Source: an uncultured Pseudomonadales bacterium (GTDB lineage: Bacteria > Pseudomonadota > Gammaproteobacteria > Pseudomonadales > Porticoccaceae). Taken from it: a stretch of 64,000 nt of DNA. The DNA lies in the NCBI GenBank assembly GCA_943788875.1, contig CALSSA010000004.1:240379-304378 (forward strand). The letters run 5' to 3'. The notes beneath the pieces were generated by a model, which saw only the letters and a list, made by a program, of their open reading frames with translations, was not told the origin of the DNA and did no database searches. Shown in pieces: positions 15,868-39,515 of the stretch (positions within the stretch are counted from its first letter, which is position 1; every line of letters starts with the position of its first letter). The position numbers and the translations under genes are program-made.

Positions 15868-15884
15868 AGCAAAAACTGTGCCAG
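15868..15884 (-). promoter_or_regulatory. Putative sigma54 promoter for flhA
   Basis: Minus strand CTGGCACAGTTTTTGCT; GG-N10-GC; about 85 bp upstream of flhA. Confidence 0.75.
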
Positions 15885-21672: not shown

Positions 21673-21731
21673 GGAGCGAGTATGGGCCACAAGATCAGCT
21701 GACGCAATACCGACAGAGCGGCAATAAACAG

Positions 21732-21759
21732 CGGCAAAAAGCTGCCACAAAAGCGGCAA
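21732..21759 (-). promoter_or_regulatory. Tripartite flagellar motif, copy B
   Basis: Minus strand TTGCCG-CTTTTG-TGGCA-GC-TTTTTGCCG in the flgA/flgB intergenic region. Confidence 0.6.
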
Positions 21760-21845
21760 ACTATTCAAATCTAAAATAGAAAAACAACCTTAACTACATG
21801 ATTTAAAACGATATTGTAATTTAAATGCGGCATTGTCGGGTGACT

Positions 21846-21861
21846 TGGCATCTGTTTTGCA
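21846..21861 (+). promoter_or_regulatory. Putative sigma54 promoter of flgB operon
   Basis: TTGGCATCTGTTTTGCA; GG-N10-GC. Confidence 0.8.
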
Positions 21862-21937: not shown

Positions 21938-22318
21938 ATGAATATTTTAGATACAGCTTTTGGCATTCACGAACGGGCACTGGATTTGCGTGCTCAGCGC
22001 ATGGAATTGATTGCGCAGAATATTGCCAATGTGGATACGCCACATTTTAAAGCCCGAGATCTCGATTTCAAAGCGGTGCTCAATGAGACCCAGGGCTCCC
22101 TGAGCACTACTCAGAGCGGCCATATCAAATCAGCAGCTGCTCAGGGCCAGGGTGATTTGGTTTACAGCATCCCATTCAGCACGTCGCTCGATGGCAATAC
22201 AGTTGAACTCAGTGTTGAGCAGGCCAAGTACGGTAAAGCTGCGGCCCAGTATCAGGCGACTTTACGATTTATTGAGGGCGATATCAGCGCGGTGCGCAAA
22301 GCCCTTAGAGGAGATTAA
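21938..22318 (+). CDS. flgB: Flagellar rod protein FlgB
   Basis: ALDLRAQRMELIAQNIANVDTPHFKARDLDF. Confidence 0.96.
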   Translation: MNILDTAFGIHERALDLRAQRMELIAQNIANVDTPHFKARDLDFKAVLNETQGSLSTTQSGHIKSAAAQGQGDLVYSIPFSTSLDGNTVELSVEQAKYGKAAAQYQATLRFIEGDISAVRKALRGD

Positions 22319-35725: not shown

Positions 35726-36555
35726 TTATTTCAGCAGTGCTAATACAGTCTGTGCCTGCTGGTTAGCCTGTGCCAACATGGCAGTACCCGCTTGCGCGAT
35801 AATTTGGGTTTTCGCTAAGGCAGTACTTTCCGCGGCATAATCAGCATCCTGAATTCGGCTAAGGAGCGCTTGAGTATTCATTGATACATTGCTCAGGTTG
35901 TCAACAGTGTGCTCGAGCCTGTTAATTGCCGCACCATAGGTAGCTCGCTGAGTGTTCAATGCTACGATCGCGACATCAACATCGAGAATTGCAGCAGCGG
36001 CGTTGGTCGATGCTCCGTAACGTCTCCAGTTAGACCCAAGTCGCCATCGTCTGTTAGGGTCACCAAAGTCAACAGTCCATCGTCTGGGCGGTATCGCCGA
36101 TCTGATATGTTACTGTACCGCTAGATCCGGCAGAGCCGGCCATTAAATTGCAGTTCCATTCCACTCGGTGTTGGCGCCAACTCGGCCAACTTCAGTCATC
36201 AGCTGCTGGTATTCGAGATCCAACTGCGCCTCTGTCTGCGTCGGTTACTGTGCCGTTTGACAGCCTGCACACCTAACTCGCGCATGCGCTGAAGCATATC
36301 ACCGATTTCAATTGAAGCGCCGTCGGCAGTTTGAATCATTGAAATAGCATCGTTGGCATTTTTAACTGCCATGTTTAAGCCTTTCACCTGCGCAGTCATA
36401 GTGTTTGACATTGCCATACCTGCGGCATCATCCGCTGCGGAATTGATGCGCAGGCCAGTGGATAATCTCTCCAAAGCCTGGGTAGAGGCGCGTTCGTTTT
36501 GAGCCATTGCATTTGCCGTTAAAGTTGCGGCAACGTTTGTGTTAATAACAGCCAT
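35726..36555 (-). pseudogene. Flagellin copy 1, multiple frameshifts
   Basis: N-terminal ORF 36199-36555 and C-terminal ORF 35726-35959 match flagellin 2 ends; several small length differences in the middle. Confidence 0.85.
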
Positions 36556-36633: not shown

Positions 36634-36660
36634 TTATCGGCAGCATTTCTAGAGACTTTA
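36634..36660 (-). promoter_or_regulatory. Sigma28 promoter of flagellin 1
   Basis: Minus strand TAAAGTCT-N11-GCCGATAA. Confidence 0.88.
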
Positions 36661-36677
36661 GAAAAAGCGGCAATCTT

Positions 36678-36704
36678 TTGCCGGATTTTGGCAAATTTTT
36701 GCCG
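36678..36704 (+). promoter_or_regulatory. Tripartite flagellar motif, copy A
   Basis: TTGCCG-GATTT-TGGCA-AA-TTTTTGCCG followed by ATAT. Confidence 0.6.
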
Positions 36705-37921: not shown

Positions 37922-39100
37922 TTAGCCTTTTAAGAGCGCTAAAACAGATTGGTTCTGTTGGTTAGCCTGCGTAAGCATGGCTGTGCCTGCCTGCTGAATT
38001 ATCTGCGTGCGAGCTAGCTCTGTTGTTTCTGCAGCATAATCGGCGTCTTCAATACGACTGCGTGATGCAGCAGCGTTTTGAGACACATTAGTCAGGTTGT
38101 CAATTGCGTACTCAAGCCGATTCATAGCCGCACCAAAGGTGGCGCGCTGGGCGTTGATACCATTGATGGCAGTATCTAGAGAGGCAATTGCCGCGTTGGC
38201 ACCTGCATCTGTATCAATTGCGATTGCCGAGATATCGGTGCCATACACGCCTGACAGGGCCGTGACGCCAGCAGTAGTTTCAGCTACCGTTTGTGCGGAG
38301 CCATTTTCGCTAATGGTCGGTGGGACGGTGACCACTTCTGCATTATCGTAGGTCAGGGTCAAGCTGGTTGTTCCGTCGGACGCGGTCAGACGACTCAGAG
38401 AGCCATCGGCTTCAATCGCTGCGGCAAGCCCGGCGACGGTAGTTAATGCCCCTACAGTAGTAGCATCTAACGTTATAGTATTCTGACCATCGCTGATCAC
38501 AAAGTCGCCGGCTAAAGCGGCTACTCCGGCGTCATCAATAGTGAAGTCGTAAACTGCTGGAACACCTGCTACATCAGTAGTAGACGCATTCAGATTCCAG
38601 TCGCCAAAGGCAACGCTCATGGTCTGCAGTGAATTACCGCCAACCTGGAATACTGCTGTGCCGTTGCTAGAGGTGCCTGCTGTGCCACTGAGCACATTCT
38701 CACCGTTCCACTGGGTCTGGTTAGCAACACGTTCGATCTCGGTTCGCAACTGGACAAATTCTAAATTCAAGCTGCTCTGGTCAGTGGACGTCACTGTGCC
38801 ATTGGAAGCCTGAACAGCCAGCTCACGCATGCGCTGCATCATATTGCCAATCTCGATGGACGCGCCATCCGCAGTTTGCACCATGCTGATCGCATCATTA
38901 GCATTTTGTGCTGCTTGATCAAGACCTCTGATCTGAGCAGTCATTCTTGAAGATACAGCCAGTCCAGCAGCGTCATCTTTGGCAGAGTTAATGCTCTTAC
39001 CTGTAGATAAACGCTCCATGGTCGCAGCCATATCGCGGTCATTTCTCGCTAGCGCATTCGTTGTCATAGTCGCAGCGATATTGGTATTAATAACAGCCAT
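37922..39100 (-). CDS. Flagellin copy 3, longer central domain (start MAVINTNIAAT; ORF track starts at 39121)
   Basis: Canonical flagellin ends with about 120 extra central residues relative to copy 2. Confidence 0.95.
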   Translation of the reverse strand: MAVINTNIAATMTTNALARNDRDMAATMERLSTGKSINSAKDDAAGLAVSSRMTAQIRGLDQAAQNANDAISMVQTADGASIEIGNMMQRMRELAVQASNGTVTSTDQSSLNLEFVQLRTEIERVANQTQWNGENVLSGTAGTSSNGTAVFQVGGNSLQTMSVAFGDWNLNASTTDVAGVPAVYDFTIDDAGVAALAGDFVISDGQNTITLDATTVGALTTVAGLAAAIEADGSLSRLTASDGTTSLTLTYDNAEVVTVPPTISENGSAQTVAETTAGVTALSGVYGTDISAIAIDTDAGANAAIASLDTAINGINAQRATFGAAMNRLEYAIDNLTNVSQNAAASRSRIEDADYAAETTELARTQIIQQAGTAMLTQANQQNQSVLALLKG

Positions 39101-39297
39101 TTTAAATTCCTCATTGTTCATTCAAGTTATGCTCCTGAGCCCAATTGGCTGCAGGATGTTTTTTAAACCGATTAACCGCGAGTTACGCGCAGTTGCCTGT
39201 CCATAGGCGTCGATCTAAAAAGCCTTACTTCAAATCCACTCTGGTGAACAAAAATCCCAGGGGCTAACGCCCAAAAGATCAGTCACCAGCTAAGAAG

Positions 39298-39315
39298 TTG
39301 CAAAACTGATGCCAA
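39298..39315 (-). promoter_or_regulatory. Putative sigma54 promoter of flagellin 3
   Basis: Minus strand TTGGCATCAGTTTTGCAA; GG-N10-GC; nearly identical to the flgB promoter. Confidence 0.78.
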
Positions 39316-39398
39316 CTAAGGAAGAAATGTTAAAAATTTAAATAAAAGGTATTAATATCAATAAGTTAAAAATTTTTCGTGCAGAAGCTTTGCCGCGA

Positions 39399-39426
39399 TT
39401 GCCGAGCAAGTGGCATGTTTTTGCCG
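39399..39426 (+). promoter_or_regulatory. Tripartite flagellar motif, copy C
   Basis: TTGCCG-AGCAAG-TGGCA-TG-TTTTTGCCG followed by ATAT. Confidence 0.6.
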
Positions 39427-39515
39427 ATATTTTTTGCCACTCTGTCGGAAATCCGGCAGATGGTGAGGAAGGAAGGTTAAATGTTTAACCTGAGTGAAGG
39501 TTAGCTGAGCCCGGT

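Follow-up and report, generated by a model that had tools for sequence, protein, structure and literature searches.

The arrayed motif found upstream of flgB and of two flagellin genes in this SAR92-clade genome is very probably the upstream activator site (enhancer) of a FleR/FlrC-type protein for the middle (class III) flagellar genes, as judged from sequence comparison. The window, the whole stretch of 64,000 nucleotides that was analysed, carries a flagellar cluster extending from fliK to the flagellins and flaG, and genes for FleQ-like and FleR-like enhancer-binding proteins lie just to its left, beside fliE. An FlrC/FleR enhancer had been proposed by a sequence-only reading of the window, and the proposal gains support from the rarity of the motif, its conservation at orthologous promoters, its absence from flhA, the helical phasing of its position and its co-occurrence with the FleR DNA-binding domain, from which we infer binding by FleR.

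Architecture of the motif and its promoters

The literal pattern TTGCCG-N5/6-TGGCA-N2-TTTTTGCCG matches the window only at 36678-36704 (plus strand), 39399-39426 (plus strand) and 21732-21759 (minus strand), which are exactly the three positions first proposed. In gene orientation it reads CGGCA-N6-TGCCA-N5/6-CGGCA, that is, a palindrome followed by a third arm, the core being the 16-bp palindrome YGGCA-N6-TGCCR. The earlier description of an antisense orientation therefore holds for the third arm and not for the core, which is an inverted repeat. Likewise, the third arm of the "tripartite" motif is present, but this arm, together with a fourth, is an elaboration of the two-arm palindrome within the lineage and not the motif core. 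The gene-oriented form CGGCA-N5-7-TGCCA-N4-7-CGGCAA has three matches in the 2,481,422-bp genome, all at the flgB, flagellin 1 and flagellin 3 loci, and a reversed control pattern has none in the same genome. A looser three-arm form has four matches in the window, where 200 dinucleotide shuffles average 0.005. With three (strict) to five (loose) copies per genome, nearly all of them flagellar, the three-arm motif is rare and lies far from background frequency. The bare palindrome occurs 32 times in the genome, about 26 times elsewhere than at these sites and mostly within genes where checked, a count too high for it to be specific unless position or extra arms are added.

At flgB, the first gene of the rod/hook operon (21938-22318, plus strand), the core palindrome CGGCAAAAAGCTGCCA (arms 1 and 2; 21732-21747, plus strand) is located 113 bp upstream of the sigma54 core TTGGCATCTGTTTTGCA (21845-21861, plus strand), which is present in all 30 flgB loci of the genus. 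The third arm, CGGCA (21754-21758, plus strand), is 22 bp or about two helical turns from arm 1, on the same face, while a fourth arm, CGGCA (arm 0; 21719-21723, plus strand), is found 13 bp upstream of arm 1 and recurs in most genomes of the genus. Flagellin 3, the primary, sigma54-driven flagellin (37922-39121, minus strand), is preceded by a similar arrangement on the minus strand: the palindrome CGGCAAAAACATGCCA (39411-39426) lies 111 bp from the sigma54 core TTGGCATCAGTTTTGCA (39299-39315), with a third arm CGGCA at 39400-39404 and an arm 0, TGGCA, at 39435-39439, 13 bp upstream of arm 1. Both sigma54 cores are real and differ at one position, and the gaps of 87 and 84 bp originally given between motif edge and core are right within 1-2 bp: we measure 85 bp (flgB) and 83 bp (flagellin 3) to the first T of the core, and 87 and 85 bp to its GG.

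The third copy is at another kind of promoter. No sigma54 core is present upstream of flagellin 1, which has instead a perfect sigma28 (FliA) box, TAAA-N15-GCCGATAA (TAAAGTCTCTAGAAATGCTGCCGATAA; 36634-36660, minus strand; 12/12 consensus positions), so two kinds of promoter had been merged. The first palindrome, CGGCAAAAATTTGCCA (36689-36704, minus strand), starts 44 bp upstream of the start of the sigma28 box, and a second, tandem palindrome, CGGCAAAAGATTGCCG (36668-36683, minus strand), comes 21 bp later, starting 23 bp upstream of the box. Three minor flagellins in two relatives (two in G020 and one in G026) also have the first palindrome at exactly 44 bp, and in one of the three the second palindrome has a changed base. 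Minor flagellins of relatives with a sigma28 box and a palindrome 44 bp upstream are found at L163:8537, L163:9676 and L164:4043. The flagellin 1 gene itself (35729-36555) looks frame-broken, its N-terminal part forming one 118-residue ORF in frame with the start and its C-terminal match lying in another frame; it could be a pseudogene or the product of an assembly error. The flagellin 1 copy and the similar sites at sigma28 promoters in relatives are unexplained by a simple sigma54-enhancer model.

Conservation and promoter choice within the genus

Among 50 genomes of the SAR92/HTCC2207 genus, FlgB was found in 29, and 30 flgB loci were compared. The three-arm motif precedes flgB at 25 of these loci by exact pattern and at 27 when one or two changed bases are allowed; the five exact-pattern misses comprise two loci off by one or two bases, two more divergent ones and one (G007) without the motif. 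At the 27 palindrome-anchored loci the distance to the sigma54 core is 113 bp (23 loci), 112 bp (2) or 114 bp (2), and at the primary flagellins of the genus, all 12 of which carry the palindrome with at most one mismatch, it is usually 109-113 bp. The motif is therefore conserved at orthologous promoters. Across 27 genomes the arms of the flgB site are near-invariant while the spacers vary, the information content being 1.81 bits per column in the arms versus 0.90 in other columns and 1.11 in the spacers. A YGGCAA arm 13 bp upstream of arm 1 is found in most genomes of the genus, as well as at flagellin 3. In the flgA-flgB gap, directly upstream of arm 0, a block GGTGACGCAATACCGACA (21698-21715) is almost unchanged in the 27 genomes; it is probably noncoding, since stops break the flgA frame there in several genomes, and is possibly the flgA promoter or the site of another regulator.

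Which promoters carry the site was judged from a census of every strict sigma54 core in flagellar clusters of the genus, about 745 kb of DNA. An exact palindrome is located 98-114 bp upstream of the core at 12 of 13 flgB and 11 of 12 primary flagellin promoters, the remaining two having one mismatch, as against none of the 36 cores of flhA, fliK and fleR in that range (Fisher p=8e-15, a value in which independence is overstated, the genomes being related). By gene, no palindrome is found upstream of the flhA (0/9) or fliK (0/14) cores in these clusters, nor in the 98-114-bp range at the fleR cores (0/13). The class III targets, flgB and flagellin, thus carry the palindrome at 23 of 25 promoters versus 0 of 9 for the class II gene flhA, a sigma54 promoter not expected to use FleR; in the window, the flhA core CTGGCACAGTTTTTGCT (15868-15884, minus strand), without palindrome, serves as the negative comparison. 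The same 745 kb contain 50 exact palindromes, only a handful of them away from flgB, flagellin, fliK and fleR.

Those at fliK and fleR occupy other positions. In 11 of 14 genomes fliK has an exact palindrome downstream of its sigma54 core, at a distance of about 218-254 bp, an arrangement that resembles a downstream FlrC site; at L130:18110, to the left of the window, it lies in the 5' end of fliK, the distance being about 218 bp in most genomes. This palindrome overlies the peptide [ST]G[NK]xxP, which is kept in 14 of 14 genomes, even those with a broken palindrome, and it may therefore reflect coding constraint. In 5 of 13 fleR promoters an exact palindrome precedes the sigma54 core by 134-135 bp. 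Autoregulation of FleR through this site is possible, its conservation being too low to claim it; FleR autoregulation has been reported in P. aeruginosa (PMC8335546).

Promoter choice also bears on a rival assignment of the site, to FleQ (the master regulator of class II flagellar genes) or to some other enhancer-binding protein. FleQ likewise acts on flagellar sigma54 promoters, its gene adjoins fleR, and its DNA-binding domain is also of the Fis type. However, flhA, which is under FleQ control in Pseudomonas, has a sigma54 core and no palindrome in nine of nine genomes, and the GTCAAT-type FleQ box is unlike the palindrome. The palindrome instead marks class III targets of FleR/FlrC, and its presence goes together with that of the FleR DNA-binding domain (see below), which makes assignment to FleQ or another such protein unlikely. 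The flhA operon has been studied in P. putida (PMC6424431).

The palindrome across the class and the FleR regulator

The motif had been assigned to "this lineage", yet its dyad core is class-wide and hence not lineage-specific. Regions upstream of flgB were collected from 84 Pseudomonadales loci, 69 Gammaproteobacteria loci (nearly all one per family) and 14 Burkholderiales loci picked for carrying a close FleR relative. CGGCAA-N4-TTGCCG occurs within two mismatches at 56/84 and 40/69 loci of the first two sets and at 14/14 of the selected Burkholderiales, 12 of them perfect; these loci are not independent counts, since the genomes share ancestry. With at most one mismatch, a spacer of 4 is found at 27 Pseudomonadales loci, where any other spacer gives 0-3. 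Permuted palindromes match 2 loci on average and 13 at most. In the class set, a spacer of 3 scores 11 versus 22 for a spacer of 4, so a minority may use the shorter one. Within one mismatch, 40 of 68 flgB upstream regions carry the palindrome versus 0 of 136 neighbouring control windows. The flanking RG/CY bases, although unused for selection, extend the symmetry and give the class-wide form RGCGGCAA-N4-TTGCCGCY. A good box is missing at about 30% of the Pseudomonadales flgB loci, including 17 with a FleR hit. The strict tripartite pattern was also tried as a cross-family unit and returned scattered matches in other families; the palindrome alone is the right unit.

The distance from palindrome start to sigma54 core is not continuous and clusters at 65-68, 76-81, 86-91, 96-103, 106-111 and 121-123 bp; SAR92 falls at 113 bp, and the modes at about 67, 78, 89, 100 and 111 bp are one DNA turn apart. 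A period of about 10.75 bp persists without the dominant 76-81 class (R=0.56 over 45 loci, 0/20,000 permutations as high). Shared ancestry inflates this significance, but the number of separate distance modes points to selection for insertions and deletions of whole turns.

Such positional locking also bears on whether the arms form an RNA hairpin or a transcription terminator rather than a protein site. Inverted repeats can fold, and the tandem copy at flagellin 1 does so slightly more stably than its shuffled versions (z=-2.4), but the flgB and flagellin 3 copies fold ordinarily (z about -0.9), the flgB copy lies between divergent genes, and a terminator would not need to be held in helical steps from a sigma54 core, all of which makes this reading very improbable. 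Equally improbable is that the three copies derive from duplication of one promoter region and persist through descent rather than function, for although the flagellin genes are duplicated here and the sigma54 cores are near-identical, the spacers and flanks have diverged and the arms have not across 27 genomes, and the same palindrome precedes flgB in unrelated families; this refutes duplication for the flgB site, while it is possible for the flagellin 1 copy alone.

The protein that would read the palindrome as an enhancer is encoded at G000:C4:232249-233709. This FleR-like gene product comprises an AAA+ domain with a GSFTGA loop (GAFTGA-type) and an HTH_8 (Fis-type helix-turn-helix) domain; its best match of solved structure is V. 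cholerae FlrC, and its closest named relatives are from Porticoccaceae MAGs and SAR92-clade isolates, including HTCC2207 and H921. Its recognition region, LGISPRTLRYKL, hardly varies among SAR92, other Pseudomonadales and Burkholderiales, and it differs from that of NtrC of the same genome. Among the 84 Pseudomonadales loci, the box precedes flgB at 55 of 72 with a FleR DNA-binding-domain hit versus 1 of 12 without (p=1e-5). FleR has been reported at the flgBCDE promoters of P. aeruginosa (PMC8335546), and class III genes driven by FlrC have been published (PMC8335546, PMC6504787, PMC7064773).

The N-terminal domain of FleR in SAR92 and its Burkholderiales relatives is devoid of the acidic pocket, the phospho-acceptor and the lysine, the phospho-acceptor aspartate and conserved lysine being absent from all aligned SAR92 FleR sequences with a full N-terminus. 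It is nonetheless predicted to adopt a receiver fold (mean pLDDT 85), with receiver domains as its top PDB matches. No fleS is found between fleQ and fleR, a gap of about 230 bp without any gene at this locus, nor next to fleR in the related Burkholderiales, whereas the fleQ-fleS-fleR order is kept in the same-family genome G167 and in most other sampled members of the Pseudomonadales. In the FleR tree the pseudo-receiver forms fall on one side; the canonical group is supported at 98/96 and the pseudo-receiver grouping weakly, at 87/53. The SAR92 FleQ is short, a 399-residue open frame that starts at the AAA+ domain and is devoid of an N-terminal domain (L130:8820-11713, left of the window), and the layout of short FleQ, pseudo-receiver FleR and no fleS is also seen in relatives and in the order members G074 and G150. 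SAR92 FleR and FlgB are closer to those of Burkholderiales and of family f17 than to those of G167 (L231-L280), a likeness that hints at horizontal transfer of the flagellar system. Two adjacent MotB/OmpA-type genes are located upstream of fleQ (L130:1714-4224).

Known systems and a proposed mechanism

FleR/FlrC regulators have been studied for decades, and the element described here is itself of a known kind. Like FleS/FleR of P. aeruginosa and FlrB/FlrC of V. cholerae, SAR92 has an AAA+ sigma54 activator encoded beside flagellar genes, with the rod/hook operon and a sigma54-driven flagellin as targets. In contrast to FleS/FleR, the SAR92 FleR possesses neither a phospho-acceptor nor a neighbouring FleS. 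NtrC-type upstream enhancers, such as that of glnA, are palindromic and helical-face dependent, and they too lie ahead of a sigma54 promoter and are read by a dimer with a Fis-type helix-turn-helix; the NtrC recognition helix, LGWGRNTLTRKL, differs from that of FleR, as does the NtrC site from the palindrome. V. cholerae FlrC sites are typically located downstream of the transcription start (PMC6504787), whereas the SAR92 sites are upstream, at 113 bp. Similar to SAR92 FleR, FlbD of Caulobacter crescentus is a sigma54 activator with a divergent receiver and no known cognate kinase, and defined ftr elements are its sites at flagellar promoters (PMC3096577, PMC3930126). In NCBIfam, SAR92 FleR matches FlbD best, though far below the cut-off (327 versus 750 bits). 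Caulobacter FlbD is under the control of FliX; the scan of SAR92 flagellar-cluster proteins reported no FliX domain.

If the site is the FleR enhancer, a FleR dimer would most likely read the 16-bp palindrome through its Fis-type helix-turn-helix. Palindrome-bound FleR would then oligomerise, contact sigma54-RNA polymerase through a DNA loop and use ATP to open the promoter, and a distance fixed in one-turn steps would hold site and core promoter in a constant facial alignment. Assembly of a second dimer, or of the oligomer, is probably aided by the extra half-sites of SAR92, which lie 22 bp downstream and 13 bp upstream of arm 1. Since the phospho-acceptor aspartate and a neighbouring FleS kinase are both missing, SAR92 FleR is probably switched by its assembly state or by a partner protein and not by phosphorylation. 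A bolder and doubtful extension is that the kinase-free FleR branch of SAR92 and freshwater Burkholderiales reads the class-wide enhancer without phosphorylation, and in some genomes also binds the palindromes that precede sigma28 flagellin promoters by exactly 44 bp, and mostly also by 23 bp; one sigma54 activator would then also control, probably restrain and possibly help, sigma28 transcription of minor flagellins.

As far as we could check, the class-wide consensus, the helical phasing, the multi-arm form of SAR92 and the tandem copies at sigma28 flagellin promoters are new. A published FleR/FlrC consensus site was not found in the literature searched, and the bare palindrome may already be recorded in the FlrC footprinting work or as the ftr consensus; the main text of the HT-SELEX atlas (PMC8041468) does not mention FleR.

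A helix-phased, class-wide palindrome would allow class III flagellar regulons to be predicted, with no experiment needed, in thousands of genomes. The pseudo-receiver branch, in turn, poses the question of how expression of rod and hook genes is timed to follow assembly of the flagellar base in bacteria that have lost both FleS and the site of phosphorylation, and since the SAR92 clade has named isolates with the system (HTCC2207, H921), the answer may be within reach.
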